Origin: Carboxylicivirga fragile
Lineage (GTDB): Bacteria; Bacteroidota; Bacteroidia; Bacteroidales; Marinilabiliaceae
Reading direction: 5' to 3'
Length of the DNA stretch: 64,000 nt
Assembly (NCBI GenBank): GCA_025499625.1
Contig: JAFMVD010000027.1
Location: 1-64,000 of the forward strand
Below, in pieces: positions 42,097-62,886 of the stretch. The position numbers and the translations under genes were made by a program. Numbering within the stretch: the first letter of the stretch is position 1; each line of letters begins with the position of its first letter. The notes under the pieces were generated by a model. That model searched no databases and was not told the origin of the DNA. It worked only from the letters and a program-made list of their open reading frames with translations.

Positions 42097-42576
42097 ATGA
42101 CAGCAGTGAAACAACTGGTAAAAGGTTTGGCCGAACAACACGGTCGAAATGAAGAAAGTCTTTTACCAATTCTTCAAGGAATAGTGAGCCAGGAGCAACA
42201 CATTTCCGAGGATGCGATGGTCGAGGTAGCCCGTGAGTTGAATATTTCAGCGGCTCAGGTGTATGGTACTGCTACCTTCTATTCGTTTTTACATACTAAA
42301 CCGCTCGGAAAGTTTGTAATTCGTGTATGCAAGACCATAACTTGTATGATGCACGGAAAAAATCAAATCATTAAAGAACTGGAAACGGTTCTGAAAATTA
42401 ATTTAGGTGAGACTACCCATGACGGAAAGTTCACTTTACTTGAGACTAATTGCCTGGGACAATGTCACAAAGGTCCGGCCATGCTTATCAACGATAAGCC
42501 ATATACACAACTTACCCCTGAGAAGGTACGAGAAATAATTATGATGTATCGTCACGAAGAAGTTCGTGCCAACTAA
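42097..42576 (+). CDS. hydC: NuoE/HydC-like 2Fe-2S subunit of hydrogenase module 1
   Basis: A 159-residue thioredoxin-fold [2Fe-2S] protein. The helical N-terminus (EESLLPILQGIVSQEQHISEDAMVEVA...) is followed by GTATFYSFL and the cluster ligands in CKTITC (C-x4-C) and CLGQC (C-x3-C). HydC/NuoE subunits pass electrons between the NuoF-like flavoprotein and other clusters. First gene of hydC1-hydB1-hydA1. The upstream 262 bp is AT-rich; I find no TAnnTTTG box, but an imperfect palindrome occurs at 42054-42068. Confidence 0.92.
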   Translation: MTAVKQLVKGLAEQHGRNEESLLPILQGIVSQEQHISEDAMVEVARELNISAAQVYGTATFYSFLHTKPLGKFVIRVCKTITCMMHGKNQIIKELETVLKINLGETTHDGKFTLLETNCLGQCHKGPAMLINDKPYTQLTPEKVREIIMMYRHEEVRAN

Positions 42577-45671: not shown

Positions 45672-46505
45672 TTATTCGCAAAGTACATATAAATCCTTTC
45701 GAGGATTAATGCATAGAACCGGGACTTGTTCCCGGTTTTTAATAGCCTTAAGCTCTGGTGGACCAACTATTTCCTGATCAGGCCCATAGTGTTTTGTTGA
45801 GCAAATCAGTACAATGCCATTTTTATTCGCGGCAGCTAATTCTGTTGCTTCACGGGCTATCGAAAGGCTATTGTAGCAGCCCGGAATGATTTTATATGAA
45901 AGATTTAATTTAGTGAGTAGGTTTTGTGCGAATAATAAATGATTCTTGATGATGTTTCTCGCTGTCACATCTTTTTCATGAGCCGGAATTAATACAATGT
46001 CCGAATTGTTGAATCGACCAAAGTAACTTGCCCAAATGAATTTTTCTTTTTCTTCCTTTCTAAAGCTGATTGGAATATAGATGGTATTGTAGTTCGGAGC
46101 TTTGGTGTTTGGACGAACCATGAGGAAAGGCATTTTAAATTGCCTGCTTTGTTTCATTAATTGAACGTCCTTGTAGAATTTGAGTTTTGATTCCTGGGGC
46201 ATTTCCATAACGATGGATGCCGCTTCTAGTTCGTCAGAAAGGCTTGATAAAACAGGCATTATGCGCCCCTGCTTTACAATGGTGGTAATGCTCGATCGTG
46301 TTTTTAGTCTCAGCTGATCTTTTAGGTCCTGAAGGTAGTCAACAATTGCATCAGAGGCCTCTTGAGAACTTTGATCCGGAATAATGGCAATGATTGCAAT
46401 GTTCTGGTTTAGTGCTTCAGATAATGCTAGGCCTTGCTCAATGACAAGATCATCATTATCATTTCTGCGCACAAGTACGAGTACAGATGATAAAAAAGAA
46501 TTCAT
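45672..46505 (-). CDS. Universal-stress-protein-like, two-domain
   Basis: A 277-residue cytoplasmic protein built as two UspA-like halves. The first starts with the strand SVLVLVRRNDND and contains VIEQGLALSEALNQNIAIIAIIP; the second starts YNTIYIPISFRKEEKEKF and ends with VLICSTKHYGPDQEIVGPPE and VPVLCINP. No clear ATP-binding GxxGxxxxxxxxxS/T motif is visible, so a nucleotide-free USP is possible. It lies between two hydrogenase transcription units on the opposite strand, and hydA1 ends immediately next to its stop. Confidence 0.6.
   Translation of the reverse strand: MNSFLSSVLVLVRRNDNDDLVIEQGLALSEALNQNIAIIAIIPDQSSQEASDAIVDYLQDLKDQLRLKTRSSITTIVKQGRIMPVLSSLSDELEAASIVMEMPQESKLKFYKDVQLMKQSRQFKMPFLMVRPNTKAPNYNTIYIPISFRKEEKEKFIWASYFGRFNNSDIVLIPAHEKDVTARNIIKNHLLFAQNLLTKLNLSYKIIPGCYNSLSIAREATELAAANKNGIVLICSTKHYGPDQEIVGPPELKAIKNREQVPVLCINPRKDLYVLCE
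45717..45741 (+). terminator. hydA1 terminator lying inside the antisense stress-protein gene
   Basis: AACCGGGA (45717-45724) and TCCCGGTT (45730-45737) form an 8-bp GC-rich stem followed by TTTT, 45 bp after the hydA1 stop. It overlaps the 3' end of the minus-strand coding sequence. Confidence 0.7.
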
Positions 46506-46540: not shown

Positions 46541-46559
46541 ATTTGTTAAAAGAACAAAT
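46541..46559. promoter_or_regulatory. Palindromic operator candidate between the divergent units
   Basis: ATTTGTT aaaag AACAAAT is a perfect 7-nt inverted repeat 36 bp upstream of the stress-protein start and 156 bp upstream of the 2Fe-2S gene. The half-site spacing is too short for a Rex site. Identity of the regulator unknown. Confidence 0.35.
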
Positions 46560-46714
46560 GTTGTATTAGGCTTAGATTTAAATCTATTATATTGATAAAT
46601 AAAGGCTTGAGTTATTTAGGATGGCTATAAATTGCAATGAGCTGATGAATAGCATTCTTCATTAACGAATTATTTTCTTAATTTAAATTCGATTATATTT
46701 TTTAAACCTTGAAT

Positions 46715-46972
46715 ATGGATGCAAAACATGAAATAACTATATGCCTCGGAAGCTCTTGTTTTTCGCGTGGTAATAAGGAAGTATTGGAGGTGATTAAGAA
46801 ATTTATTGACAAGCATCAGCTTAGTGTTGATGTGTTTTTTCATGGTGATTTATGTAATGGTCACTGTGCCGAAGGCCCGGTTCTTAAGATCGATGAACAA
46901 CTATTTTCGAATGTTCAAGTGGATAATGTTTTCGATATTTTGAGTGGGTATTTTGAGATTAATGAAAATTAG
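46715..46972 (+). CDS. Small NuoE-type [2Fe-2S] ferredoxin protein
   Basis: An 85-residue thioredoxin-like ferredoxin with all four ligands: CLGSSC (C-x4-C, residues about 10-15) and CNGHC (C-x3-C, about 46-50). It resembles the C-terminal half of NuoE without the helical N-terminus. ATG at 46715 (MDAKHEIT) is preferred to the in-frame TTG at 46709. First gene of the 13-gene signalling/hydrogenase run, 19 bp before the HydS-like gene, so it probably feeds electrons to or from that protein. Confidence 0.85.
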   Translation: MDAKHEITICLGSSCFSRGNKEVLEVIKKFIDKHQLSVDVFFHGDLCNGHCAEGPVLKIDEQLFSNVQVDNVFDILSGYFEINEN

Positions 46973-46991
46973 CAGCTAAGTTTCTAGTGAT

Positions 46992-48851
46992 ATGAGTCAG
47001 TTAATAGTAAGTGATAAGGATAAGTGTAACCTAAGTTATACCTGTGTTAGGGTTTGTCCCGCTAAAGCCATTAAAATAGCGGATAAGCATGCTCAGATAT
47101 TGCCAGACAGATGTATTGGATGTGGGCATTGTGTAACTATGTGTTCGCAAGAAGCAATTAGCTTTAGGGATGAGAAGACGCAAGTGTTGGAGTTAATCAA
47201 ATCTGAAGATAAAGTTGCAGTTATTTGTGATCCAGCTATATCTGGCGAATTTACTGATGTTACTGATTATCGAAAGTTTGTAGCGATGATCAGAGAGTTA
47301 GGTTTTGATTATGTAACTGAAATGTCCTTTGCAGTTGATTTAATTGCTTATCGTTATGAGAATTTGGTTGAAAACTTTCAAGGTAAGCATTTTATTACCA
47401 CCAAATGTCCGGCAGTTGTTAAGTACATTGAGAGACACGAGCCGGATTTAGTTGAGAATTTAGCGACTATTGTTCCGCCATATATTGCAATGGCAAAAGT
47501 GGTTAAGAAAAGATATGGAACAGACACTAAGGTTGTGTATTTAACTGCCTGTACTGCTTCTAAGGATGATGCAAAGCGTTTCTATGGTAGCGATGGTCAG
47601 GTTGATTCTGTTATAACATTTCTGGAATTACGAGAGCTATTTGCCATGAAACGTATATCTGAAAATACGGTTGAATATAGTGAGTTTGATCCTCCGTTGG
47701 GGCGTAAAGGCGGTTTATTTCCAATTGCTCATGGCCTATTTCAGGCAGTCGATATTAATCAGGGCTTGTTAGAAGGTAATATCTTAATAACAGAAGGGCG
47801 AACTAATTTTTTACAGTCTATTCGAGAATTTAAAGCGGAGAAAGAGCTGAAGCAACACCTTGATCTGTTTTATTGCAAAGGTTGTATCATGGGGCCTGGT
47901 ATGTCGAGTGGAGGTAAGAAGTTTACAAGACGATCGCAGGTAATTAAATATGTAAATAAACGCATGAAAGACATTGATGTTTATCAATGGAGACTTGATG
48001 TGGAAGAATTTAAAAACCTTGATTTAACTCGAAATTTTCGTTCGGTTGATTTACGATTGGTTAATCCAGAAGATGAGGCTGTTGATAAGGTTTTGGAAGA
48101 CATGGGAAAGAAGAAGCGTGAAGATCAGTTAGGATGTGGTGCGTGTGGTTATCCTACGTGTCGCGAATTTGCTGTTGCTCACCTTCAAGGTTTAACGGAT
48201 TACGAGCAATGTTATACCTATTCTTTAAAAACGCTTCGTAGTTATGTGAAGAAGGTTAATGCGTCCAATGAAAAATATAGGGTTACCCAAGATGCTTTAT
48301 TAAAAAGTGAAGAGAAAGCACGGCTGGAGGAGCGAGCTGCTCGTGCTGCTTCTGAAACTACTACTTCAATGCTCAATAAATTAAGGGCAGGAGTGGTGAT
48401 TGTGGATGCTAAGTTGGATGTGATCGAAGCCAACGCTAAGTTTATTGAAATGTTAGGAGACGATGCAAGTGAAATTGCTGAATTGGTGCCTGGTTTAAAG
48501 GGTGCTAAATTGAGTACCTTGGTTGATTTTCATAAAGTATTCACAACCGTATTGCAATCGGGGCAAGATGTGTTGGATAGAGACGTTGCATTTAAAAATT
48601 CAATTTTTAATGTTTCGGTTTTTACCATTAAGAAGAATGGAATAGTTGGTGGTATTATTCGCGATTTAGTAACACCAGAGGTTAGAAAGGAAGAGGTAAT
48701 AAAGCGTGCGCGTGACGTGATTAAAGAAAATCTACAAACTGTGCAGCAAATAGCATTCTTGCTTGGCGAGAGTGCTTCCAAGACTGAAAAGACCCTAAAT
48801 AGTATAATTGAAGCTCAAAAATTAGGCGATTCAAATGAATCAGGACAATAG
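46992..48851 (+). CDS. hydS: Sensory [FeFe]-hydrogenase-like protein with PAS domain (HydS)
   Basis: A 619-residue protein. An N-terminal two-cluster ferredoxin (about 10-60) has its second Cys replaced: DKCNLSYTCVRVCP lacks the second ligand, whereas DRCIGCGHCVTMC is normal. The hydrogenase large-subunit domain (about 75-330) has degenerate motifs: L1 TKCPAVV, L2 ACTASKDDA, L3 YCKGCIMGPGM. A Fes-type [4Fe-4S] (LGCGACGYPTC) follows near 380, then a helix and a PAS domain near 460-570. This order is that of group C HydS proteins proposed to sense H2 or redox state. Its stop overlaps the next gene's start by 17 nt, showing coupling to the phosphatase. Confidence 0.88.
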   Translation: MSQLIVSDKDKCNLSYTCVRVCPAKAIKIADKHAQILPDRCIGCGHCVTMCSQEAISFRDEKTQVLELIKSEDKVAVICDPAISGEFTDVTDYRKFVAMIRELGFDYVTEMSFAVDLIAYRYENLVENFQGKHFITTKCPAVVKYIERHEPDLVENLATIVPPYIAMAKVVKKRYGTDTKVVYLTACTASKDDAKRFYGSDGQVDSVITFLELRELFAMKRISENTVEYSEFDPPLGRKGGLFPIAHGLFQAVDINQGLLEGNILITEGRTNFLQSIREFKAEKELKQHLDLFYCKGCIMGPGMSSGGKKFTRRSQVIKYVNKRMKDIDVYQWRLDVEEFKNLDLTRNFRSVDLRLVNPEDEAVDKVLEDMGKKKREDQLGCGACGYPTCREFAVAHLQGLTDYEQCYTYSLKTLRSYVKKVNASNEKYRVTQDALLKSEEKARLEERAARAASETTTSMLNKLRAGVVIVDAKLDVIEANAKFIEMLGDDASEIAELVPGLKGAKLSTLVDFHKVFTTVLQSGQDVLDRDVAFKNSIFNVSVFTIKKNGIVGGIIRDLVTPEVRKEEVIKRARDVIKENLQTVQQIAFLLGESASKTEKTLNSIIEAQKLGDSNESGQ

Positions 48852-50025
48852 GTTCTATATCGATATCGAGTGTCGTCAAAATAACCATGTTGGTGAGTTG
48901 ATTTGTGGCGATGTATTCCTCTCTAAGCGTATTAAGGAGGAAGGACGAACTATTGCTGTATTGTCTGATGGAATGGGCAGTGGAGTTAAGGCTAATGTGC
49001 TTGCTACGCTTACTGCATCCATGGCAATGAACTTTACGGTTGAGCATCGGGAAGTGCGTAAAACTGCTGAAATTATCATGAATACATTACCTGTGTGTAG
49101 TGTTCGCAAGGTGAGCTATAGCACTTTTACAATTATCGATATTGATGATGATGGAACGACTACCATTGTGGAGTATGATAATCCGCAATGCATAGTCATG
49201 CGTGGAGCAAAAATGTTTGATCCAAAATGGTCTTACATTGAGTTGCAGAGTGAACAAAATAAGGGTAAAAAAATAAGAACTTGTAAGTTTAAAGCACAGC
49301 GAGAAGACAGAGTTTTTTTCTGGTCTGATGGTATTGTGCAGTCCGGTATGGGGTCAAGAGCATTTCCATTTGGATGGGGAGAAGAAGCTGTTGGGGAATA
49401 TGTCAAGAAAATAGTTAATTATACGCCTTTTGCATCTGCCATAAAGATTGCTAATAAGGTTGTAAATATGGCGATGTTGCACGATGGTGACAAACCAAAG
49501 GATGATTCTTCGTGTGGGGTAATTTATTTCAGAGAGCCTCGTAAATTACTGCTCATATCCGGCCCTCCATTTGAAGATGAAAGCGATTTTAAATTTTCTT
49601 TAAAAGTACAACATTATAAGGGCAAAAAAATTATTGCCGGAGGAACAACTGCCGAGGTTATTGCCCGTGAATTAGCACTTAAATTTGATGCTGGACTAGA
49701 GTCTGATGATCCGGATTTACCACCGGTTTCCTTTATGCAGGGAATTGATTTGGTAACCGAAGGTATTTTAACGCTTGGAAAAGTTGCGACACTGTTAGAG
49801 CAGTATAATAATGAGACAAGGTTGGGTCGAGGGCCTGCTGATCAGATAATTAAGATGTTGCTCGAGAGTGATAAAATCCATGTTTTAAATGGAACGAGAA
49901 TTAATGTAGCTCATCAAGATCCAAACTTACCTGTAGAGCTTGAAATTAGGCGTACTGTAGTGAAACGCATCGTCAAATTATTGGAAGAAAAATTCCTGAA
50001 AGAAGTGAATATTGAATACATGTAA
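48835..50025 (+). CDS. SpoIIE/PP2C-type serine phosphatase
   Basis: A 396-residue soluble PP2C. Metal-binding Asp motifs appear as VLSDGMGSGVKAN (near residue 44) and DDSSCGVIYF (near 222), the SpoIIE family pattern. The C-terminal 160 residues (from about 235, starting LLLISGPPFEDESDF) form an extra domain I do not recognise. It starts inside the end of the HydS-like gene, so it is very likely its output partner: a change in the PAS/H-domain would switch phosphatase activity. A candidate substrate is a protein phosphorylated by the RsbW-like ATPase downstream. Confidence 0.9.
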   Translation: MNQDNRFYIDIECRQNNHVGELICGDVFLSKRIKEEGRTIAVLSDGMGSGVKANVLATLTASMAMNFTVEHREVRKTAEIIMNTLPVCSVRKVSYSTFTIIDIDDDGTTTIVEYDNPQCIVMRGAKMFDPKWSYIELQSEQNKGKKIRTCKFKAQREDRVFFWSDGIVQSGMGSRAFPFGWGEEAVGEYVKKIVNYTPFASAIKIANKVVNMAMLHDGDKPKDDSSCGVIYFREPRKLLLISGPPFEDESDFKFSLKVQHYKGKKIIAGGTTAEVIARELALKFDAGLESDDPDLPPVSFMQGIDLVTEGILTLGKVATLLEQYNNETRLGRGPADQIIKMLLESDKIHVLNGTRINVAHQDPNLPVELEIRRTVVKRIVKLLEEKFLKEVNIEYM

Positions 50026-50132
50026 AATGTTAGTTTATTCACTGATAAAAATCATAAACCTTGTCTGCTTTTAAATTATCGCTAATGTCTGTTTAAATCT
50101 TAGATTTTGAAATCAATTCGACCTTGATTGTC

Positions 50133-50162
50133 GTTGATTTGATGCAATTTAATTTAGATTTG
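50133..50162 (+). promoter_or_regulatory. Possible internal promoter in the hyd cluster
   Basis: TAGATTTG at 50155-50162 matches the -7 consensus and GTTG at 50133-50136 is the -33 candidate, with an 18-nt spacer (slightly short). It lies in the only large gap (273 bp) of the cluster and could drive the genes from the first DRTGG gene to hydC2 separately. Confidence 0.5.
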
Positions 50163-50298
50163 ATATGGATTATCGAAAATGGACTTCTTCATTTTTTTTT
50201 TTGATATTAATAGTATTCATTTGTCCTGTCAATCGGGAAAATTTTCTTTAATGGTTGGATTTATTTTAGCCATTTCATGAAAAAAACAGATGTTGCTA

Positions 50299-50643
50299 AT
50301 GAAGATACGAGAAATAGCAGAAATTTTAGATGCACGAGTAGTTTGTGGCGAGGAATCCATTGATAGAGATATTAATTGTGGATTTGCGAGTGATTTGATG
50401 AGCGATGTATTGACATTGGATTCAGAGCACTTGGCATTAATTACGGGTTTGGCGAATATGCAAGTGGTTAGAACTGCAGAAATGGCTGATGTAAATTGCA
50501 TTGTGTTTGTTCGCAATAAAATTGTGAGCCCTGAAATGCGAGAAGTAGCTGCAGAGAATGATATGGTATTATTAGAGTGTAAGTACTCGATGTTTAATAC
50601 CATAGGAATGTTATTTCAGGCCGGATTACAGCCTGTTTATTGA
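50299..50643 (+). CDS. DRTGG-domain protein 1
   Basis: A 115-residue single-domain protein starting MKIREIAEILDARVVCG, with the DRTGG-like fold (CGFASDLMSDVLTL, then VNCIVFVRNK and AAENDMVLLECKYSMFNTIGML). DRTGG domains occur in phosphotransacetylase and CBS/DHH-type proteins and may bind a nucleotide, but the function is unproven. ATGs at 50290 and 50299 are both possible; the second aligns with the paralogue at 52451. Located between the phosphatase and the RsbW-like gene, a neighbourhood recurring in hydrogenase clusters. Confidence 0.8.
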   Translation: MKIREIAEILDARVVCGEESIDRDINCGFASDLMSDVLTLDSEHLALITGLANMQVVRTAEMADVNCIVFVRNKIVSPEMREVAAENDMVLLECKYSMFNTIGMLFQAGLQPVY

Positions 50644-50656
50644 TCTAATTATTTGT

Positions 50657-51073
50657 ATGGAGTTTAACTACGAAGTTGAAGGCGGCAATTTTGCAAAAGC
50701 GGGAAACGCAGCCAGCAGTGTTAAAAAAGTGCTAAAGCAGCTTAATGTTGATCCTAAGGTGATCAAACGTGTGGTTGTGGCTTTATACGAAGGCGAAGTG
50801 AATGTGGTGGCACATGCTTATAAAGGCAATATCATGGTGGATATTGACACTGCTCGTATTTTTATTCGAATTCAAGACGAAGGGCCAGGTATTCCTGATA
50901 TTGACTTGGCTATGACTGTTGGTTATTCAACAGCTTCGGCTATGGTTCGGGAAATGGGATTTGGAGCAGGTATGGGCTTACCAAATATGAAACGAAATGC
51001 AGATTCTTTAAAATTATCAAGTAAGGTTGGTGAAGGAACAATTGTAGAACTCACAACTAACTTGTCAAAATAA
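50657..51073 (+). CDS. RsbW-like GHKL ATPase / serine kinase
   Basis: A 138-residue anti-sigma-factor-type ATPase. N-box residues in YEGEVNVVAHAYKG (Glu, Asn, His), G1 box DEGPGIPD, and G2 GMGLPNMKR are present. Such proteins phosphorylate a STAS-domain antagonist or bind a sigma factor. No STAS or sigma gene is in the window, so the partner is encoded elsewhere or is a new type. Together with the SpoIIE-type phosphatase it forms a classic kinase/phosphatase switch pair, here dedicated to hydrogenase control by location. Confidence 0.88.
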   Translation: MEFNYEVEGGNFAKAGNAASSVKKVLKQLNVDPKVIKRVVVALYEGEVNVVAHAYKGNIMVDIDTARIFIRIQDEGPGIPDIDLAMTVGYSTASAMVREMGFGAGMGLPNMKRNADSLKLSSKVGEGTIVELTTNLSK

Positions 51074-51084
51074 GGATATTAGAT

Positions 51085-52464
51085 ATGCGTAAACAACACT
51101 TTTATCATGCATTAAAAGTAGATGAGCAACTATGCTTTGGTTGTACGCATTGTATGAATGTCTGTCCGACTGATGCCATTCGTATTCGTGATGGCATTGC
51201 ATCTATCCATCGAAATTTATGTGTTGATTGTGGCGAATGTATGAAGGTTTGTCCGGTTGAAGCTATTTTTGTGGAACAGGATGATTTTCAGAATATATTT
51301 GATTACAAGTATCGAGTGGCTGTTTTACCTTCAGTATTTATTGGTCAGTTTTCGAAGCAAATAAGTGAAGGTGAGATAATCGACGTATTAAAAGGTTTAG
51401 GTTTTACACACGTTGTGCCTGCCGAAGCAACCGTTGATAGCTTAAATGAAGCCATGTTGGAGGTTCATAACGCCGATCATGAGAAACCACTGATTAGTTC
51501 CTTTTGTCCATCAATCGTGCGCTTGATTCAAGTTAAGTTTCCGGGACTTGTAAATAATATAATAGCAACAAAACCACCAATTGACAGTACTGCTATCTAC
51601 TATCGTAAGTTACTTTTAGATGAAGGTAAGAAGGCTGAAGATATTGGTATTTTTTATGTTACGCCTTGCGCATCAAAAATTGCAACGGTGAAAGATCCTG
51701 TTGGTGAATCCACATCATTTGTTGATGGGGTCATTAATATGGATTTTTTATATAATAAAGTATACCACGTGCTTAAAACACGTGGCGAAGAATATACTCA
51801 GAAAGACGAAAATGTACCATATATATCACCTAAAGGTTTAAAGTGGAGCCTTACAGATGGAGAATCAGATCACATGAAAGGCCGTTGTTTGGCCATTGAT
51901 GAGATTCATAATGTTATTTCTTTTCTTGAGAAAGTTGAGAACGATGAGGTCATTAATGTAGATTTTCTCGAACTACGTGCATGCGATCAAAGCTGTGCAG
52001 GTGGAGTGCTTTTAACTGAGAATCGATTTTTAACGGTAGAACGTTTGAAAACAAGAGCTGAACGCCTTGAGAAAACGAAGGATTATTATACTGAGATTAC
52101 ACCAGTTCATAAAGAATTTATCAAGGATACTTTACAGTTAGGTAAAATTGAGCCTCGTTCGGTAATGAGCCTTGATGAAGATATGGGAACAGCTCTAAAG
52201 AAAATGGAGCGGGTTCGTCGCATAATGTGTTATTTGCCAGGTATTGATTGCGGAGCCTGTGGAGCACCCAATTGTGAAAGCCTGGCACGAGACATTGTTA
52301 TGAAGGATGCACATTTATCTAATTGTGTATTTCTGCAGCGCATGATGGAAAAAACAAAGAAATTAGATCCGATGCACTCCATAAGAATTATTGAAAAAAC
52401 ATGGGGTAAGGATCGTTTGGATAAGGATTGTAAAAAAAAGGGAGCAAAGAATGAAAGTTTGTGA
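51085..52464 (+). CDS. Second HydS-like [FeFe]-hydrogenase-domain protein, no PAS
   Basis: A 459-residue protein with an N-terminal double [4Fe-4S] ferredoxin (CFGCTHCMNVCP and CVDCGECMKVCP, both complete), a hydrogenase large-subunit domain (about 75-320) and a C-terminal Fes domain (IDCGACGAPNC, near 388). H-cluster Cys candidates persist: FCPSIV (L1), TPCASK (L2, with the Lys kept) and ACDQSC (L3, C-x3-C). No catalytic TSCCPGW. It is distinct from the PAS-bearing HydS and from HydA1/2, so it may be a second sensor or a redox relay. It overlaps the next gene's start by 14 nt. Confidence 0.85.
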   Translation: MRKQHFYHALKVDEQLCFGCTHCMNVCPTDAIRIRDGIASIHRNLCVDCGECMKVCPVEAIFVEQDDFQNIFDYKYRVAVLPSVFIGQFSKQISEGEIIDVLKGLGFTHVVPAEATVDSLNEAMLEVHNADHEKPLISSFCPSIVRLIQVKFPGLVNNIIATKPPIDSTAIYYRKLLLDEGKKAEDIGIFYVTPCASKIATVKDPVGESTSFVDGVINMDFLYNKVYHVLKTRGEEYTQKDENVPYISPKGLKWSLTDGESDHMKGRCLAIDEIHNVISFLEKVENDEVINVDFLELRACDQSCAGGVLLTENRFLTVERLKTRAERLEKTKDYYTEITPVHKEFIKDTLQLGKIEPRSVMSLDEDMGTALKKMERVRRIMCYLPGIDCGACGAPNCESLARDIVMKDAHLSNCVFLQRMMEKTKKLDPMHSIRIIEKTWGKDRLDKDCKKKGAKNESL

Positions 52465-52783
52465 TATAGTAGAAAAGCTGAATTTGAAAGTAATTGGTGG
52501 TTCCGAAGGATTGCAGAATGAGGTAGTTGGTGGTTATACATCAGACTTGTTAAGTGATGTAATGGGAAATGCCAATGAAGGGCAAGTTTGGATAACGCTC
52601 CAAACACATCGTAATGTAATGGCAGTTGCTTCGCTAAAGGATGTTGCAGCGGTGATTATAGTAAAAGGCTTAGAAGCGGAGGAAAGCACCATTAGTCAAA
52701 GTAATGATGAAGGGATTCCTTTGTTAAGCTCAGATTTGGAAACGTTTGAATTATCGGGGCAGCTATACGAGTTGTTGCAGTAA
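52451..52783 (+). CDS. DRTGG-domain protein 2
   Basis: A 110-residue paralogue of the protein at 50299-50643: MKVCDIVEKLNLKVIGG, then GGYTSDLLSDVMGNANEG, AAVIIVKGLEAEE and IPLLSSDLETFELSGQLYEL. An in-frame longer start at 52391 runs into the previous gene; the ATG at 52451 has a GGAG sequence 7-10 nt upstream and aligns with the paralogue. The two DRTGG genes flank the RsbW-like and HydS2 genes. Function unknown; a ligand-binding regulatory subunit is a guess. Confidence 0.8.
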   Translation: MKVCDIVEKLNLKVIGGSEGLQNEVVGGYTSDLLSDVMGNANEGQVWITLQTHRNVMAVASLKDVAAVIIVKGLEAEESTISQSNDEGIPLLSSDLETFELSGQLYELLQ

Positions 52784-52786
52784 GGT

Positions 52787-53530
52787 ATGAAATTATTTAA
52801 AGCTGATTTCCATATTCATACGGTTTTATCGCCATGCGGAAGTTTGGAGATGAGTCCGCTTGGAATAATTGAATCAGCAGTAAAACAAGGATTAGATATT
52901 ATTGGTATTACCGATCATAACACAACACATCAGTGTAAAGAGGTAGTGCTGGTTGGAGAAAAAAAAGGAATAACGGTATTGTGTGGAGCCGAGGTAACTA
53001 CACGTGAAGAAGTACATTGTTTAACGTTCTTTGAAAATTTTGAAAAACTTGAAGCTTTCCAGAAGTATCTGGATGAGCATTTACCAAATGTGCCGAATGA
53101 TGTGGATCATTTTGGACATCAGGTATGGGTGAATGAAGAAGAGGAGATTCTGGGACAAGAAGATCGCTTATTAATTAGTGCCATTGACCAATCGATTGAG
53201 GAGGTAGAACGTAAAGTTAAATCTTTAGATGGTTTATTTATTCCAGCTCACGTTGATAAACTTCGCAATAGTTTGTACAGTCAACTCGGATTTATGCCAT
53301 TTGATTTACAGCCTGACGCCATAGGGATGAGTCCCAATGCTAAAATCGACAAGGAATTGGAAAAGCATCCTGAACTAAATAAGTTGCAATTAATTAGAAG
53401 TTCTGATGCACATCAGCCAGACCTCATAGGTTCGCACTATACTGTTTTAGAGTTAGAAAAGGCCAGTTTCGAAGAAGTGAAAATGGCTTTGCACAAGTTG
53501 AATGGAAGAAACGTAAAACGCTTAGTTTAA
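52787..53530 (+). CDS. PHP-domain phosphoesterase
   Basis: A 247-residue metal-dependent phosphoesterase with every PHP motif: DFHIHT (motif I, His-x-His near residue 6), GITDHN (motif II), a His in EEVHCLTFF, HVD (motif III) and SSDAH (motif IV). Related PHP proteins remove nucleotide 3'-phosphates or act as trehalose or polyphosphate phosphatases, so the target could be a small signalling nucleotide. It starts 3 bp after DRTGG2 and precedes a GHKL ATPase by 10 bp, clearly part of the hydrogenase unit. Confidence 0.85.
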   Translation: MKLFKADFHIHTVLSPCGSLEMSPLGIIESAVKQGLDIIGITDHNTTHQCKEVVLVGEKKGITVLCGAEVTTREEVHCLTFFENFEKLEAFQKYLDEHLPNVPNDVDHFGHQVWVNEEEEILGQEDRLLISAIDQSIEEVERKVKSLDGLFIPAHVDKLRNSLYSQLGFMPFDLQPDAIGMSPNAKIDKELEKHPELNKLQLIRSSDAHQPDLIGSHYTVLELEKASFEEVKMALHKLNGRNVKRLV

Positions 53531-53540
53531 AAGTAGGTAG

Positions 53541-54083
53541 ATGAAGGATTTGTCGATGCATATAACTGATATTGTTCAGAACTCGGTAAGAGCAAAAGCG
53601 AAATTGGTTGAACTCATTATAAATGAAACTGGCGATCAACTCAGTTTTACCTTTGTGGATGATGGTTGCGGCATGGATGAGGAAACGGTTAAGAAAGTAA
53701 GCGATCCGTTTTACACTTCACGAACAACCCGTAAGGTTGGTTTGGGAATCCCTTTATTTACTCAAAGTGCAGAGCAAACAGGAGGCGAATTGAAGATTAG
53801 TTCCACTATTGGTAAAGGAACCACTGTTGAGGTGAGGCTAGGATTAAATCACATCGATCGACCACCCATGGGTGATTTACCTTCAACAGTAGCCATGCTT
53901 ATTACGGGTAATCCTGAAACGGAAATGATTTTCACCTATAATAAGGAGGAAGAGAAGTTTGTATTGGATAGTCGAGAAGTGAAGGAGATATTGGGAGATG
54001 TAGATATCCGTTTACCGCAGGTAACAAGTTTTTTGAAAGAAATGATTGCTGAGAATTTAAAAGAATTGAATACAACTATATAA
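53541..54083 (+). CDS. Second GHKL ATPase in the hydrogenase cluster
   Basis: A 180-residue protein with a histidine-kinase-type ATPase domain only: N-box in MHITDIVQNSVRAKAKLV, G1 DDGCGMDEET, and G2 RKVGLGIPLFTQSAEQTGG. There is no dimerisation/phospho-acceptor domain, sensor or membrane segment. The C-terminal 60 residues are an unrecognised extension. It may phosphorylate a protein directly or act with an external partner. Lies between the PHP gene and the HndB-like gene, with 10-33-bp gaps. Confidence 0.85.
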   Translation: MKDLSMHITDIVQNSVRAKAKLVELIINETGDQLSFTFVDDGCGMDEETVKKVSDPFYTSRTTRKVGLGIPLFTQSAEQTGGELKISSTIGKGTTVEVRLGLNHIDRPPMGDLPSTVAMLITGNPETEMIFTYNKEEEKFVLDSREVKEILGDVDIRLPQVTSFLKEMIAENLKELNTTI

Positions 54084-54115
54084 AACGAATGTGTAATTAA
54101 TAATAACCAATTGCT

Positions 54116-54523
54116 ATGTCTAAAGTTAAATCACTAGCTGATCTTCGTAAAATGAAGGATGAGCTGCAGAGTAAAGTTCATCTGCGGGAACAAAGTGACA
54201 ACCCGGAGAAATTAGTTCAAGTAAAAGTATCTATGGCTACCTGTGGTATTGCTTCCGGAGCTAAAGAGATTATGAACTATATGATTGATGAGATGGATAA
54301 CCAAGCCATCGAAGCGCTTGTTACTCAAACTGGGTGTATGGGTTTTTGCCATGCAGAACCAACTATTGAAGTGACTTTGCCTAATAATGCACCAATTGTT
54401 TATGGCCATGTTGATCAAAAGAGGGCTGAAGAAATAATCAATAAGTACATTATCAGAGGAGAACTGGTTGATGGTATCATACCAGTGAATTACGAGACTG
54501 TTAAAGAAAACAAGAACGACTAG
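54116..54523 (+). CDS. HndB-like [2Fe-2S]-domain protein
   Basis: A 135-residue protein of the HndB type found next to NAD(P)-linked [FeFe] hydrogenases. The cluster region reads MATCGIASGAKE and GCMGFC: three Cys are visible, and the position of the second Cys in the C-x4-C pair is Gly. It may hold an unusual cluster or be a structural subunit. Encoded 12 bp before hydB2 and 32 bp after the GHKL ATPase, so it belongs with the catalytic module. Confidence 0.82.
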   Translation: MSKVKSLADLRKMKDELQSKVHLREQSDNPEKLVQVKVSMATCGIASGAKEIMNYMIDEMDNQAIEALVTQTGCMGFCHAEPTIEVTLPNNAPIVYGHVDQKRAEEIINKYIIRGELVDGIIPVNYETVKENKND

Positions 54524-54535
54524 TATTTTAACACT

Positions 54536-56329
54536 ATGGCTAAATATAAAAATCATGTCCTTGTTTGCGGCGGTACAGGTTGTCGTGCTTCTCAAGGAGA
54601 GGAAATTGTACAGAATTTAAATCAAGTCATTGAAGAGAATGGAATTGAGAATGATGTACAGGTAGTAAGAACTGGATGTTTCGGTTTTTGCGAGAAAGGA
54701 CCAGTTGTGAAAATGGTTCCTGATAATACATTTTACGTACAAGTGAAACCTGAAGATGCAACTGAAATAGTTAAGGAGCATTTGGTTAAAGGGCGTCAAG
54801 TTGAGCGTTTATTATTTACCGATCCTGAAACAAAAGAACGTATTTCAGAATCAAAAGACATGGGTTTCTACAAAAAGCAGATTCGCATTGCCTTGCGTAA
54901 TTGTGGTTTTATCAACCCTGAAAATATTGATGAGTATATCGCTCGTGAAGGTTATGCTGCCTTAGGTAAAGCATTAACTGAAATGAAGCCTGAAGAAGTA
55001 ATCAAGGAGATTCTTGATTCGGGACTTCGCGGTCGCGGTGGAGGAGGTTTCCCTACAGGATTGAAGTGGGAATTGACTCGTAAAGTTGAGGCTGATCAAA
55101 AATACGTAGTTTGTAATGCCGATGAAGGTGACCCAGGTGCATTTATGGACCGTTCAATTCTTGAAGGTGATCCACATGCTGTGCTTGAGGCAATGGCCAT
55201 TAATGGTTATTGTACTGGTGCATCAATCGGTTTAATTTATATTCGTGCTGAGTATCCTTTGGCCATCGAACGTTTGAAAATTGCTATTGAGCAAGCTCGT
55301 GAGTATGGTTTATTAGGTAAGGATATTATGGGTACTGGTTTCGATTTTGATGTTGAAATGCGTTATGGAGCTGGTGCTTTTGTTTGTGGTGAAGAAACAA
55401 GTTTGATTCACTCAATGGAAGGTTTGCGTGGTGAGCCTACTGTTAAGCCACCATTCCCATCGGAAAGCGGATACAAAGGAAAACCAACCAATGTTAACAA
55501 TGTTGAAACTTATGCAAATATCCCAGTTATCCTATTGGAAGGTGCTAAGTGGTTCAGCAGCATTGGTACTGAAAAAAGTAAGGGTACGAAAGTATTTGCT
55601 TTAGCCGGTAAAGTAAATAACGTAGGTTTGATTGAAGTACCTATGGGTACTACACTTCGCGAAGTAATCTTCGACATTGGTGGTGGTATCAAAGATGGAA
55701 AAGGATTTAAAGCTGTTCAAACAGGTGGTCCATCAGGAGGTTGTTTAACTGAGAAACACCTTGATATTCCAATCGATTACGATAACTTATTGGCATGTGG
55801 TTCTATGATGGGATCGGGTGGTATGATTGTAATGGACGAAGATGACTGTATGGTTTCGATGGCTAAGTTCTATCTTGACTTTACCGTTGAAGAATCGTGT
55901 GGTAAATGTGCGCCATGTCGTATTGGTAACAAGCGTTTGTACGAAATGCTTGACAAAATTACAGAAGGTAAAGGAACAGAAGAAGATTTAGGTCACTTAC
56001 GTAATTTAAGTAACGTGATTAAGGATACTTCTCTTTGTGGTTTAGGACAAACATCGCCTAACCCGGTTCTTTCTACTATGGAAAACTTCTGGGATGAATA
56101 TGTTGCTCACGTTAAAGAGGATAAATGTCCGGCTGGTCAGTGTAAGTCATTGATGCAGTATGTTATTAGTGAAGAAACATGTGTGGGATGTACACTTTGT
56201 TCTCGTGTTTGTCCGGTAGATGCTATAACAGGTGATAAAAAAGCACCTCATATCATCAATCAGGAAACATGTATTAAGTGTGGAGCTTGTTATGATAAGT
56301 GTAAATTTGCTGCAATCAGCATCCAGTAG
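54536..56329 (+). CDS. hydB: HydB, long NuoF-like flavoprotein of module 2
   Basis: A 597-residue flavoprotein. Domain order: [2Fe-2S] thioredoxin domain (VCGGTGCRAS, GCFGFC; 1-115), NuoF FMN/NADH core (GLRGRGGGGFPTGLKWEL near 165, NADEGDPGAFMDRS), SLBB, the [4Fe-4S] motif ESCGKCAPCRIGN (near 455), and a C-terminal double [4Fe-4S] ferredoxin (CVGCTLCSRVCP; CIKCGACYDKC). This is the architecture of the bifurcating Thermotoga/Acetobacterium HydB, so coupling of NADH and ferredoxin to H2 is plausible. Module 1 HydB lacks the outer domains. Confidence 0.95.
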   Translation: MAKYKNHVLVCGGTGCRASQGEEIVQNLNQVIEENGIENDVQVVRTGCFGFCEKGPVVKMVPDNTFYVQVKPEDATEIVKEHLVKGRQVERLLFTDPETKERISESKDMGFYKKQIRIALRNCGFINPENIDEYIAREGYAALGKALTEMKPEEVIKEILDSGLRGRGGGGFPTGLKWELTRKVEADQKYVVCNADEGDPGAFMDRSILEGDPHAVLEAMAINGYCTGASIGLIYIRAEYPLAIERLKIAIEQAREYGLLGKDIMGTGFDFDVEMRYGAGAFVCGEETSLIHSMEGLRGEPTVKPPFPSESGYKGKPTNVNNVETYANIPVILLEGAKWFSSIGTEKSKGTKVFALAGKVNNVGLIEVPMGTTLREVIFDIGGGIKDGKGFKAVQTGGPSGGCLTEKHLDIPIDYDNLLACGSMMGSGGMIVMDEDDCMVSMAKFYLDFTVEESCGKCAPCRIGNKRLYEMLDKITEGKGTEEDLGHLRNLSNVIKDTSLCGLGQTSPNPVLSTMENFWDEYVAHVKEDKCPAGQCKSLMQYVISEETCVGCTLCSRVCPVDAITGDKKAPHIINQETCIKCGACYDKCKFAAISIQ

Positions 56330-56366
56330 TTTACAAAGTAGTTTTGAACTGTAAAAGAATAAAAGA

Positions 56367-58133
56367 ATGGAAATCGTTCAATTAACCATAGATAATAAAA
56401 AGGTAGTTGTTGAAAAAGGCACAACTATCTTAGAAGCTGCTAAAACAATCGGGGTTGATATACCTACGCTTTGTCACATGAAGCTTCATGATACAAACTT
56501 CGAAAACAAGCCAGGCGGATGTCGTGTGTGTGTAGTTGAGGTTGAAGGTCGTCGTAATTTAGCTCCAGCTTGTAAGTCGGAGTGTGACGAAGGCATGAAT
56601 ATTAACACGCACTCGGTACGCGTTGTGAATGCACGTCGCACGGTAATGGAACTGATTCTATCAGATCACCCATTTGACTGTTTGGTATGTGCTAAGTCAG
56701 GCGATTGTGAGTTACAGTCGATGGCGCAGAACCTAGGTATTCGCGAAATTAGATACCAAGGTGAGAAAAATAAATATAAGAGTGATGAGTCTCCGGCAAT
56801 CATCCGTGAGATGGAGAAATGTATCATGTGTCGCAGATGTGAAACATCATGTAACAAGGTACAAACTGTAGGTACACTTTCGGCTATCAACCGTGGTTTT
56901 GAGTCAGTTGTAGCTCCTGCATTCGAAATGGATTTAGATCACTCTAATTGTACTTTCTGCGGACAGTGTGTAGCTGTTTGTCCAACTGGAGCTTTAACCG
57001 AGCGCGATAGCTCATCTAAAGTAATGGATGCCATTGTTGATCCTACTAAAACAGTTATCGTGAATACTGCTCCTGCGGTACGTGCTGCTTTGGGTGAAGA
57101 GTTCGGCATGGAAGCTGGTACTTTGGTAACAGGTAAAATGGTTTCTGCTTTGCGTAAGCTTGGATTCGATCATGTATTTGATACGGATTTTGCAGCCGAT
57201 CTTACCATTATGGAAGAAGGTACTGAGTTACTTGGCCGTTTAGGTAAACATTTAGCTGGTGATAAGGATGTGAAATTACCAATCTTGACATCTTGTTGTC
57301 CGGGATGGGTGAATTTCTTCGAGCACCAATTCCCAGATATGTTAGATATTCCATCAACTGCTAAGTCGCCTCAGCAGATGTTTGGAGCCATTGCAAAAAC
57401 TTATTTTGCTGATCAGTTGGAGAAGAAACGTGAAGAAATTGTTGTTGTTTCTGTTATGCCTTGTTTGGCTAAGAAATACGAATGTTCGCGTGATGAATTC
57501 AAGGTAGATGGTGACCCTGATGTTAACTTATCGATTTCAACGCGTGAGTTAGCTCAGATGATACGTAACGCTAACTTGAACTTTGAAGCACTTGAGGATG
57601 ATGATTTCGATCAACCAATGGGTGAGTCAACTGGTGCAGCGGTTATTTTTGGTACTACTGGTGGTGTAATTGAAGCTGCTGTTCGTACCGCTTACGAGGT
57701 ACATACTAAGAAATCCCTCGAACGTCTTGACTTCGAAGAGTTACGTGGAATGGAAGGTATCCGTTCTGCTACCATCGATTTTGATGGACTACCAGTTAAT
57801 ATTGGTATTGCTCACGGTTTAGGTAATGCTCGTAAGTTATTGGAAGATATTAGAGCTGGTAAGTCTGAATTCCATGCCATTGAAATCATGGCTTGTCCTG
57901 GTGGATGTATTGGTGGTGGTGGTCAGCCATATCACCATGGTGATGTGGAAGTTCTTAAGAAACGTCAAAGTGCCATTTATCAAGAGGATAAAGGTAAGGT
58001 ATTGCGTAAGTCGCACGAGAATCCATTCATACAGAAATTGTATAAGGAGTTCCTAGGCGAACCTTGTGGCGAGAAGTCGCATGAGTTATTGCATACGCAC
58101 TATTACGACAAGAAAAAGAAGACTGAAATTTAG
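56367..58133 (+). CDS. hydA: [FeFe] hydrogenase catalytic subunit, module 2 (canonical)
   Basis: A 588-residue HydA: plant-type [2Fe-2S] (GGCRVCVVEV), NuoG-like His-Cys3 cluster (HPFDCLVCAKSGDCELQ), two [4Fe-4S] clusters (CIMCRRCETSC; CTFCGQCVAVCP) and the H-cluster domain. L1 TSCCPGW (C310, C311), L2 VMPCLAKKYE and L3 EIMACPGGCIGGGGQP are all intact, so this is the likely active enzyme that makes or oxidises H2. It shows the same layout as HydA1. Encoded between hydB2 and hydC2 and followed by a repeat-rich gap. Confidence 0.96.
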   Translation: MEIVQLTIDNKKVVVEKGTTILEAAKTIGVDIPTLCHMKLHDTNFENKPGGCRVCVVEVEGRRNLAPACKSECDEGMNINTHSVRVVNARRTVMELILSDHPFDCLVCAKSGDCELQSMAQNLGIREIRYQGEKNKYKSDESPAIIREMEKCIMCRRCETSCNKVQTVGTLSAINRGFESVVAPAFEMDLDHSNCTFCGQCVAVCPTGALTERDSSSKVMDAIVDPTKTVIVNTAPAVRAALGEEFGMEAGTLVTGKMVSALRKLGFDHVFDTDFAADLTIMEEGTELLGRLGKHLAGDKDVKLPILTSCCPGWVNFFEHQFPDMLDIPSTAKSPQQMFGAIAKTYFADQLEKKREEIVVVSVMPCLAKKYECSRDEFKVDGDPDVNLSISTRELAQMIRNANLNFEALEDDDFDQPMGESTGAAVIFGTTGGVIEAAVRTAYEVHTKKSLERLDFEELRGMEGIRSATIDFDGLPVNIGIAHGLGNARKLLEDIRAGKSEFHAIEIMACPGGCIGGGGQPYHHGDVEVLKKRQSAIYQEDKGKVLRKSHENPFIQKLYKEFLGEPCGEKSHELLHTHYYDKKKKTEI

Positions 58134-58143
58134 ACTAGTAAAT

Positions 58144-58233
58144 AGTATCAAGATAAAAGTATCAAGAATGATTTACTTATTGTTTAAAGGTTAATCCTTA
58201 AGTATAGAGTTGCAATCTTGATACTTGATACTT
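58144..58233. repeat. Nested direct and inverted repeats in the hydA2-hydC2 gap
   Basis: AGTATCAAGAT occurs at 58144-58154 and AAGTATCAAG at 58157-58166; their exact inverses ATCTTGATACT (58215-58225) and CTTGATACTT (58224-58233) follow. The result is two nested 10-11-bp stems able to pair in either register with a 50-60-nt loop. It may be a dispersed intergenic repeat or an mRNA structure affecting hydC2 expression. Confidence 0.8.
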
Positions 58234-58259
58234 AGATCTTAAATCTAAAAAAAAACAAA

Positions 58260-58736
58260 ATGGCTAAAATAAAATTACCCGCTGCTAAAGTGGAAGAGTT
58301 AAAAGGAGTTTGCGTTAAATTCAACCGCGATGGTGGTGAATTGATCAACGTGCTTCATGCAGCTCAAGAGTTGTTTGGTTACTTACCTGCCGAAGTGCAA
58401 GAGTTGGTAGCTAACGAAATGAATCTGTCGATTGCCCATGTATATGGTGTAGTTACTTTCTATTCATTCTTCTCGATGATACCTAAAGGTGAGCATCCAA
58501 TTTCTATATGTATGGGTACAGCATGTTATGTGCGTGGTGCCGAAAAAGTATTGGACGAATTTAAGCGTCATTTAGATGTAAAAGTTGGTGAAACGACTGA
58601 GGATGGTAAATTCTCGATTAGCTGCTTACGTTGTGTAGGAGCTTGTGGTTTAGCACCAGTTGTTACTGTTGGCGAGAAAGTTTTCGGACGTGTTGCTCCT
58701 GAAGATGTAAAAGGTATACTCGAAGAGTATTCTTAA
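58260..58736 (+). CDS. hydC: NuoE/HydC-like [2Fe-2S] subunit of module 2
   Basis: A 158-residue thioredoxin-fold [2Fe-2S] protein with ligands in CMGTAC (C-x4-C) and CVGAC (C-x3-C), plus VVTFYSFF of the helical part. Closer to canonical NuoE than HydC1 is. It is the last gene of the run, placed after hydA2 rather than before hydB as in module 1, and separated from hydA2 by a 126-bp repeat-bearing gap. A terminator follows. Confidence 0.94.
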   Translation: MAKIKLPAAKVEELKGVCVKFNRDGGELINVLHAAQELFGYLPAEVQELVANEMNLSIAHVYGVVTFYSFFSMIPKGEHPISICMGTACYVRGAEKVLDEFKRHLDVKVGETTEDGKFSISCLRCVGACGLAPVVTVGEKVFGRVAPEDVKGILEEYS

Positions 58737-58924: not shown

Positions 58925-60004
58925 TTAGTCGTTTTTAGTAAAATAGTCTTTGTTTGAGATGGCATCATCACTCACAATAATACTAGCCTTTTTAAACCAA
59001 ACTTCTGCGTAATTTCCGGTTTTATATTGCTGTTGGAGATCGCCATTATACGTTTTAGCACCTGAACACCAATTTTTGTTGACTTCTGGAGATACGCCGT
59101 TGGTTTGATTATAACAGCCTAATTTAAAGAATAAACCTTCATTGGCATAGGCATTTTCTCTTTCAACACCATCCTGACCAACAGGCACAAACATCTTCTG
59201 AGTCTGCTCGGGTAAATCAGCACTTGTAATATACTCCGACTGAATTAAGTTTTTGGTAAACACTTTTGTTTCGTGATTTGCACTAGTGAACTTAAGGTGC
59301 ATAAGCCCATCCTTAACTTCTATTTCATAACTGAATTCTTCGCCTAACAAGATGCCATTCTGAGGTTCTTCGGGATACGAATTCTCAGTATTACCCACTA
59401 CAGAAAAATCATGTCCCCAAACACTGGTTGAATAATCCCATCGTTTTGAGTTATCAGTACCTTGGGTATTGATTTCGTAATGCCAAAACACCGAACCCTT
59501 TTGATGACCTGGAAACTTCTTGTAAAATATTTTGAGCGGTTCATTCTCATGCCCGTCAGCACTATGTATCTGACCTACTACTACTGAGTAAGAAGCAGCC
59601 ACTCGAGCATCGCCACTGGCTGATACATTCATTACTTTGAGGCTTGCTGACAATTTAGCAGGTGTTTGTGCTGACCACTTTTTAATTTGTGCCAATTCGG
59701 TTCTTGTGTTTTTTGAAGTGCCGTGAGTATTGCCAGCATTTGGGCTTTTAAATACTACCCAATCTTCATTGTTGTCTGAGGTTTTGTAAAAGAAGTCCTT
59801 TTGCTCATAATCAATGGCTTGTCCAACATTTGATCCATCTCCAAGTATCAAATTCCAATGCTCAAAAAATGGAATAATATCACTGGCATAGAGGACTTTC
59901 TCAAGCTCTTTTTTATCACTTTTATTACTTGCTGTTTTACAGCTAATTATTATCAAGCTAAAACTTAATATAACTAAGGATATGACAAATCTTTTTATAT
60001 TCAT
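58925..60004 (-). CDS. PL7 alginate lyase lipoprotein
   Basis: A 359-residue secreted lipoprotein: leader and lipobox IISC (Cys near 22), then a beta-jelly-roll lyase. PL7 motifs: NTRTELAQI (usual R-T/S-E-L/V-R; the last Arg is Ala here), QIH in VVGQIHSADG (catalytic Gln/His), and FKLGCYNQ, a variant of YFKAGxYNQ carrying the catalytic Tyr. It cleaves alginate by beta-elimination outside the cell or at the outer membrane. Last gene of the minus-strand locus, after a DEH-reductase-like SDR. Confidence 0.88.
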   Translation of the reverse strand: MNIKRFVISLVILSFSLIIISCKTASNKSDKKELEKVLYASDIIPFFEHWNLILGDGSNVGQAIDYEQKDFFYKTSDNNEDWVVFKSPNAGNTHGTSKNTRTELAQIKKWSAQTPAKLSASLKVMNVSASGDARVAASYSVVVGQIHSADGHENEPLKIFYKKFPGHQKGSVFWHYEINTQGTDNSKRWDYSTSVWGHDFSVVGNTENSYPEEPQNGILLGEEFSYEIEVKDGLMHLKFTSANHETKVFTKNLIQSEYITSADLPEQTQKMFVPVGQDGVERENAYANEGLFFKLGCYNQTNGVSPEVNKNWCSGAKTYNGDLQQQYKTGNYAEVWFKKASIIVSDDAISNKDYFTKND

Positions 60005-60051
60005 TTTATTGATTTATTAGATGTTACTTAAGTGTTGATGACTTTATGTTC

Positions 60052-60816: not shown

Positions 60817-60853
60817 ATTAGTTCGTATTATAGTTGATTATTCTAATTAGTAA

Positions 60854-61594: not shown

Positions 61595-61601
61595 TGCTAT
61601 T

Positions 61602-62873: not shown

Positions 62874-62886
62874 AGTTGTAGGCTTT

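Follow-up and report, generated by a model that had tools for sequence, protein, structure and literature searches.

A conserved gene module around a putative group D sensory [FeFe] hydrogenase, adjoining HydABC genes, in Carboxylicivirga fragile

Introduction

Group D (M2e) [FeFe] hydrogenases are putative sensors. The published accounts of TamHydS, from Thermoanaerobacter mathranii, give the M2e architecture as two N-terminal clusters, an H-domain and a C-terminal Cx2Cx4Cx16C motif, with neither a PAS domain nor a C299-type cysteine (PMC6984386, PMC8163306). A passage in a 2026 paper reports that the C-terminal cluster of TamHydS is not reduced by H2 and calls identifying the interaction partners of group D hydrogenases critical for clarifying signalling (PMC13104023). 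The available text on TamHydS describes no partner module and terms its other flank an AraC regulator. M2e proteins near kinases and bifurcating hydrogenases appear in a table from 2012 (PMC3561251), and a regulatory link between M2e sensor, kinase and bifurcating hydrogenase was already in print by that year. Here we describe HydS2, a protein with group D features encoded in a 64,000-nucleotide stretch of Carboxylicivirga fragile DNA (assembly GCA_025499625.1, contig JAFMVD010000027.1, positions 1 to 64,000; the window), together with the genes that accompany it.

The window also encodes a probable group C sensor, HydS1. In the hfs operon of Thermoanaerobacterium, hfsB (HydS), hfsC (phosphatase) and hfsD (hydrogenase) are neighbours, and deletion of hfsB is described, in the passages on this operon, as changing fermentation and raising ethanol yield (PMC5707799, PMC11837493). 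For Ruminococcus albus, Zheng et al. are cited as having proposed a neighbouring Ser/Thr kinase (as cited in PMC5707799).

Results

From open reading frame (ORF) calls and Pfam and NCBIfam matches, we found 13 collinear genes on the + strand between 46709 and 58736, with the domains named in an earlier note on this DNA. That note had described a sensory and signalling cluster containing two HydS-like proteins; our analysis supports this and shows strong conservation of the cluster together with HydABC. It had placed the cluster at 46541..58736; the end is right, and 46541 itself is intergenic, the first gene starting at TTG 46709 or ATG 46715. The 13 genes are two separable units, and comparison with relatives confirms the division: unit 1 is trx-HydS1-SpoIIE, and unit 2 is DRTGG1-RsbW-HydS2-DRTGG2-PHP-GHKL2, followed by HndB-HydB-HydA-HydC. 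We tentatively propose that unit 2 forms a sensory module in its own right, centred on the group D [FeFe] hydrogenase and signalling via the RsbW-type kinase to the DRTGG pair and tuning HydABC. The features are as follows.

46709-46972, +: trx1, thioredoxin-like [2Fe-2S] protein, likely start ATG 46715 (PF01257, 3.3e-10)
46992-48851, +: HydS1, probable group C (M2f-like) sensory [FeFe] hydrogenase (PF02906, 3.5e-38; PF04060)
48835-50025, +: SpoIIE/PP2C-type phosphatase (PF07228, 1.9e-08, residues 36-230)
50026-50289: intergenic gap of 264 bp between the two signalling units, holding the conserved TAATTTAGA
50290-50643, +: DRTGG1 protein, start ATG 50290 or, from comparison with relatives, ATG 50299 (PF07085, 8.1e-07)
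50657-51073, +: RsbW/SpoIIAB-type GHKL kinase (TIGR01925, 1.3e-16, below the family cut-off; SpoIIAB 1til, 1.6e-10)
51085-52464, +: HydS2, group D (M2e, TamHydS-type) putative sensory [FeFe] hydrogenase (Fer4, Fe_hyd_lg_C, motifs)
52451-52783, +: DRTGG2 protein, paralogue of DRTGG1, 14-nt overlap with hydS2 (PF07085)
52787-53530, +: PHP-family phosphoesterase (PF02811, 1.8e-09)
53541-54083, +: GHKL2, HATPase_c protein without a phospho-acceptor domain (PF02518, 5.6e-17)
54116-54523, +: HndB-like [2Fe-2S] protein (PF01257, 9.3e-05, just under the Pfam cut-off)
54536-56329, +: HydB, NuoF-like, long form (TIGR01959, 4.6e-144)
56367-58133, +: HydA, group A6 NADH-dependent [FeFe] hydrogenase (NF040763, 904 bits)
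58260-58736, +: HydC, NuoE-like

HydA scores above the NF040763 cut-off and is accompanied by HydB and HydC, which places the set with group A6 HydABC, a putatively bifurcating enzyme.

We looked at the conservation of unit 2 across 80 named loci whose record titles all point to Bacteroidota; these are the best 80 of 514 confirmed relatives, so the counts are weighted to close relatives, the nearest named ones by HydS2 being Carboxylicivirga species. Adjacency was counted over evaluable loci, with small unassigned ORFs allowed between neighbours. Gene order was not random in relatives, the outcome that the earlier note had named as its refutation, but conserved. DRTGG1 and rsbW were adjacent in 77/77 evaluable loci and rsbW and hydS2 in 79/79, while the pairs hydS2-DRTGG2, DRTGG2-PHP and PHP-GHKL2 were each adjacent in 77 of 80. 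DRTGG2 was placed by script in 77 of the 80 loci, and tblastn recovered it in the remaining three (L104, L107 and L155). The order continues into the hydrogenase genes, with GHKL2 next to hndB in 74 of 77 loci, hndB next to hydB in all 72, hydB next to hydA in all 67 and hydA next to hydC in all 65. A HydS2 match was found in 39 of 60 relatives, one of which (G337) was merely a cross-hit to a HydS fused to HisKA. No HydS2 relative was found in viral contigs, where there was one pattern match only.

The evidence from beyond the Bacteroidota consists of one Clostridia record and one paper. In the former, from Subdoligranulum variabile (L170), the order DRTGG1-RsbW-HydS2-DRTGG2-PHP recurs, and hydC-GHKL-hydB-hydA runs divergently from these five genes. 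In Halanaerobium hydrogeniformans, Halsa_1862-1871 are listed as hydA, hydB, ferredoxin-like, histidine kinase, NuoE, PHP, two Fe-S/hydrogenase-like genes, anti-sigma kinase and an ORF (PMC4237134). This operon list fits the order of unit 2 position by position; the DRTGG genes are unnamed in it, and Halsa_1868 and Halsa_1871 would be DRTGG2 and DRTGG1 by position only. The passage on these genes ascribes no function to the operon (PMC4237134).

Among 24 genomes, DRTGG matches of the module's kind numbered exactly two in 11/11 module-bearing genomes and none in 13/13 module-free ones. In a separate count, the PHP protein was found in 12/12 module-bearing versus 0/13 module-free genomes. The two module DRTGG proteins are the only PF07085 proteins of the source genome. 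In a set of 73 genomes, Fe_hyd_lg_C matches beyond HydS2 occurred in 57 of 58 module-bearing genomes and any such match in 5 of 15 module-free ones; two entries of this set, G316 and G361, have their matches at the same positions and probably represent a single genome, and genomes reached through loci carry no completeness figure. That the six genes from DRTGG1 to GHKL2 belong to one module is well supported. No functional description of this six-gene unit was found in one open-access library, most subscription papers lying outside its scope and leaving aside PMC10102598, the one paper listed there with both 'DRTGG' and 'hydrogenase'; the same library yielded no established role for the DRTGG, PHP and second ATPase proteins, in agreement with the earlier note.

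The sequence features of HydS2 are those of the putative sensory [FeFe] hydrogenases of group D (M2e), the TamHydS class. It has Fer4 and Fe_hyd_lg_C matches, two N-terminal [4Fe-4S] motifs, an H-domain and a C-terminal Cx2Cx4Cx16C motif (C389, C392, C397 and C414), and no PAS match. Its four cysteines in SSFCP, TPCA and ACDxSC, which align with cysteines of CpI that we take to be the [4Fe-4S]H ligands, are invariant in 16/16 sequences. The proton-relay cysteine is absent, with Phe or Tyr in its place in the pattern-matched Bacteroidota sequences. HydS2 is thus like TamHydS in its architecture, in the absence of a PAS domain and in the absence of a C299-type proton-relay cysteine. The lining of the di-iron site differs: Phe140, Thr193 and Arg298 in HydS2 versus Ala137, Ser191 and Leu291 in the residues given for TamHydS (PMC11803613). 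Since HydS2 has no output domain, it would signal in trans.

The exception among the 58 module-bearing genomes is G331 (1.8 Mb, 99% complete). HydS2 is its sole Fe_hyd_lg_C match, and its HydE, HydF and HydG all score above their family cut-offs. The operon is broken in two in this genome: DRTGG1-RsbW-HydS2 and PHP-DRTGG2-GHKL2 stand on the same contig with about 25 kb between them. Because G331 keeps all six genes after the break, together with the maturases and with no other [FeFe] hydrogenase found, the six appear to form one functional set. By the same argument, HydS2 would be the client of the maturases and would receive an H-cluster. An assembly gap could still hide HydABC.

These observations bear on the idea that the GHKL ATPases, DRTGG proteins and PHP protein instead serve the assembly or repair of HydABC or of its H-cluster, HydS2 acting as a scaffold or electron donor. 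Unit 2 is tightly linked to HndB-HydBAC, and in two relatives, G355 and G358, the maturase gene hydG follows hydA at distances of about 7 and 9 kb, which would suit assembly factors. The module is nevertheless retained without HydABC in G331 and lies away from HydABC in Parabacteroides, and the 5 of 15 module-free genomes with PF02906 proteins manage without it. We regard an assembly role as very unlikely. In the source genome, a 488-aa frame beyond the window (G000:C60:67859-68671), some 9 kb after hydC, matches the HydE model below cut-off; by the position of hydG in G355 and G358, it is probably HydG.

The division between the units runs through the gap between SpoIIE and DRTGG1. At 10 of the 12 junctions between the 13 genes, neighbours overlap or lie no more than 40 bp apart; the two wide gaps are SpoIIE/DRTGG1 (264 bp) and hydA/hydC (126 bp). 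The earlier note had read overlaps and short gaps as co-transcription, but a single transcript is not supported across the 264 bp. In relatives, the SpoIIE-DRTGG1 gap spans 162-975 bp, with one case of 2145 bp (tblastn boundaries), and an alignment of relatives shows that it contains conserved non-coding sequence. TAATTTAGA, at 50150-50158 ahead of DRTGG1, was invariant in 16 aligned sequences. Scans for promoters and terminators found no clear surplus relative to shuffled sequences, so the transcription units rest on spacing and conservation. Across the 77 named loci with DRTGG1 placed, the preceding gene was SpoIIE in 20, hydA0 of a second hydrogenase set (described below) in 14 and another gene in 42, with a contig edge in 1. 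HydS1 and SpoIIE were present in 22 of the 80 named loci, some of which are cut by contig ends.

The earlier note had treated SpoIIE and the RsbW-like protein as the matched phosphatase and kinase of one chain. In such a single circuit, the HydS1-SpoIIE phosphatase and the RsbW-like kinase would oppose each other on the DRTGG proteins or the hydrogenase. The units are indeed contiguous in Carboxylicivirga and relatives, and a SpoIIE of the unit 1 type occurs somewhere in 42 of 51 module-bearing genomes. It is absent from the other 9, however, including four Parabacteroides (not labelled as metagenome-assembled) and the 99%-complete G331. The source genome moreover has a second trx-HydS-SpoIIE copy, on contig C75, with another [FeFe] hydrogenase of ~482-486 aa, and tblastn against the surrounding 16 kb found neither an RsbW nor a DRTGG gene. 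Together with the 264-bp gap and the 22/80 count, this speaks against the matched pair, and we consider a single circuit quite unlikely.

Unit 1 is probably a group C (M2f-like) sensor with a phosphatase, as in the R. albus hydS and Thermoanaerobacterium hfs loci. HydS1 has two [4Fe-4S] motifs, an H-domain and a C-terminal Cx2Cx4Cx16C motif; its PAS_8 and PAS matches are weak (2.7e-4 and 3.7e-4, below the Pfam cut-offs), and the HydS1 profile matches R. albus HydS at 228 bits. R. albus pRUMAL01 carries rex, adhE, a gene annotated as phosphotransferase, two [2Fe-2S] genes, HydS, SpoIIE and a HydA2-type gene, sharing the order [2Fe-2S] gene(s)-HydS-SpoIIE with unit 1 and the C75 locus. The next gene in R. 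albus and in hfs is HydA2/HfsD, unlike in unit 1. The R. albus precedent cited in the earlier note therefore holds for HydS-SpoIIE and fails for a nearby HydABC: none is annotated in the 13 kb of R. albus sequence, where the RsbW, DRTGG and PHP profiles also match nothing. Two related HydS proteins that we examined are fused to HisKA-HATPase, which offers a precedent for GHKL output from HydS; one HydS1-type fusion of this kind was found in 113 loci scanned. The H-cluster loop of HydS1 is shortened from Cys-x3-Cys to Cys-x2-Cys (YCKGC), a form found in 42 of the 45 HydS1-type sequences from the loci; the C75 HydS has the Cys-x3-Cys loop. The C-terminal ~165 residues of SpoIIE (231-396; 49525-50022) have no assigned domain and are included in most full-length genomic matches.

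The closest match to the RsbW-like protein in the Protein Data Bank (PDB) is SpoIIAB. Glu45 and Asn49 of the RsbW-like protein align with Glu46 and Asn50 of the SpoIIAB N-box and the glycines of the ATP lid are kept, as in a SpoIIAB/RsbW-type Ser/Thr kinase, which it is predicted to be. One alternative is ordinary partner switching, for which the STAS protein and the sigma factor would be encoded at other loci; the resemblance to SpoIIAB fits this, as do five STAS (PF01740) matches elsewhere in the source genome. None of the five genes is on the window's contig, in keeping with the earlier note's remark that the cluster lacks a STAS gene, and the module-bearing G333 (98% complete) has no PF01740 match, the related family PF13466 not having been searched. 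With no STAS match on the contig or in G333, we liken the protein to RsbW and do not file it as an anti-sigma factor, and we hold ordinary partner switching to be highly improbable.

The two DRTGG proteins are paralogues (hhalign, 5e-19). Each has an invariant serine: Ser37 of DRTGG1 in SDLMSDVLT (counting from 50293, or Ser35 with a start at 50299), invariant in 49/49 sequences, and Ser35 of DRTGG2 in YxSDLLSDVMG, invariant in 51/51. The serine is also conserved in Subdoligranulum. AlphaFold2 models had mean pLDDT values of 95.9 (DRTGG1) and 97.6 (DRTGG2), and the predicted fold of DRTGG2 resembles the DRTGG domains of HprK-N and CBS-PPase, which places it with the DRTGG fold. The PHP protein keeps its motifs (HxH, TDHN, GxE, H and SDAH), and D7, H9, H11, D43, H44, E69, H77, H155, D207 and H209 are invariant in 15 sequences; it is predicted to be active.

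The same proteins allow for a switch run by nucleotides, with no protein phosphorylation: the DRTGG pair would bind an adenine nucleotide, the GHKL proteins would report ATP/ADP, and PHP would hydrolyse a nucleotide or nucleic-acid messenger. The predicted DRTGG2 fold resembles the CBS-DRTGG regulatory region of the Clostridium perfringens pyrophosphatase (3l2b, 3l31), an enzyme reportedly regulated by nucleotides, and relatives of the PHP protein include nucleases and a nucleotide phosphatase (EndoQ, in the PDB, and 3',5'-nucleoside bisphosphate phosphatase). Against this reading, the ligands of the pyrophosphatase are said to sit in its CBS part, and the RsbW-like kinase retains SpoIIAB-type N-box and ATP-lid residues; we judge a nucleotide switch unlikely.

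The earlier note had counted one HydABC set and overlooked a second, upstream of the 13 genes, so that the locus starts earlier than 46709.

42097-42576, +: hydC0, second hydrogenase set (Pfam)
42656-43864, +: hydB0, short form, 402 aa (Pfam)
43881-45671, +: hydA0, group A6 (NCBIfam NF040763, 880 bits)

In some relatives the set likewise precedes DRTGG1, either immediately (14 loci) or with unit 1 in between. HydB0 is shorter by 195 residues than the HydB encoded at 54536. Loss of the H-cluster from HydA0, considered for its TSCSPGW motif, was rejected because a solved HydA1 entry (7q4v) carries the same motif. Between the two hydrogenase sets, the - strand encodes a 277-aa protein (45672-46505) with no Pfam match; L100, L101, L103 and L109 have minus-strand ORFs of similar size at this position, compared by size and place. 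A palindrome, TATGATAATTGTCATG, lies at 41999-42014, 83-98 bp ahead of hydC0, with a similar site ahead of hydC0 in 12 of 29 loci; it is a possible binding site for a Crp/Fnr-type regulator. Another, TTAGATTTAAATCTA, at 46572-46586 ahead of trx1, was not seen in 12 aligned relatives. Comparison of upstream sequences did not support a common operator ahead of both units. Downstream of hydC, a minus-strand cluster (58925-63861) encodes an Nramp-type transporter and 6-phosphogluconate dehydrogenase and, by reading, alginate lyase, short-chain dehydrogenase and regulator-like ORFs.

Discussion

Gene content, gene order, co-occurrence and the conserved catalytic and ligand residues of unit 2 were observed directly, and from them we infer how a module signalling from HydS2 might work. 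HydS2 would carry, or be able to carry, an H-cluster and respond to H2 or redox state, passing its signal to the neighbouring RsbW/SpoIIAB-type kinase. Using ATP, the kinase would either phosphorylate the two DRTGG proteins or bind and release them, so that they would stand in for the STAS protein; the probable target would be the invariant serine of SDLxSDV (DRTGG1 Ser37, DRTGG2 Ser35). PHP may act as the eraser, removing phosphate or otherwise resetting the switch, and GHKL2 would be the module's second ATPase. The output would tune the adjacent A6 HydABC. Where present, HydS1-SpoIIE would be a separate second sensor feeding in from a system of the R. albus/hfs type.

Several observations weigh against this proposal. 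Scanning 113 loci revealed no fusion among the unit 2 proteins. A STAS-like fold for DRTGG2 was considered and rejected, with no STAS protein among the matches listed; given this and its DRTGG-like fold, the conserved serine may have a structural role or help to form a ligand pocket. Beside the di-iron site, Arg298 of HydS2 replaces Met497 of group A in 101 of 108 sequences, the other 7 not being pattern-matched. G331 has the module without HydABC, so HydABC would not be the sole target if that assembly is complete. Finally, HydE, HydF and HydG fall below cut-off or are unmatched in four Parabacteroides (G365-G368; L108, L111, L113 and L121), G333 and G352, all of which encode HydA and all but G352 of which carry the module; an H-cluster in every HydS2 is therefore not assured. 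All three H-cluster motifs of HydA are intact in the four Parabacteroides and G333. Either these six genomes use a different maturation route or they have no H-cluster, and a single literature search on this point found nothing.

A bolder version would make group D hydrogenases, from Bacteroidota to Clostridia, the receptors of a STAS-free partner switch in which H2-bound HydS2 controls the RsbW-type kinase, the DRTGG pair are its substrates and the PHP phosphatase resets it. We consider this generalization doubtful. The module in any case names five candidate partners of a group D sensor (the RsbW kinase, DRTGG1, DRTGG2, PHP and GHKL2), and its conserved residues are specific positions to mutate. 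A natural test genome is G331, which has kept sensor, module and maturases and in which no further [FeFe] hydrogenase was found.

The closest mechanistic comparison is with SpoIIAB/RsbW partner switching. Unit 2 is like those systems in its kinase sequence and N-box and in the SpoIIE-type phosphatase nearby. It differs in its partner, which is a STAS protein in the known systems, whereas this locus, with no STAS gene on the window's contig, has DRTGG proteins instead. If our proposal is true, it adds a substrate family to the RsbW-type kinases, and a STAS-free partner switch would be a new kind of bacterial phospho-switch.

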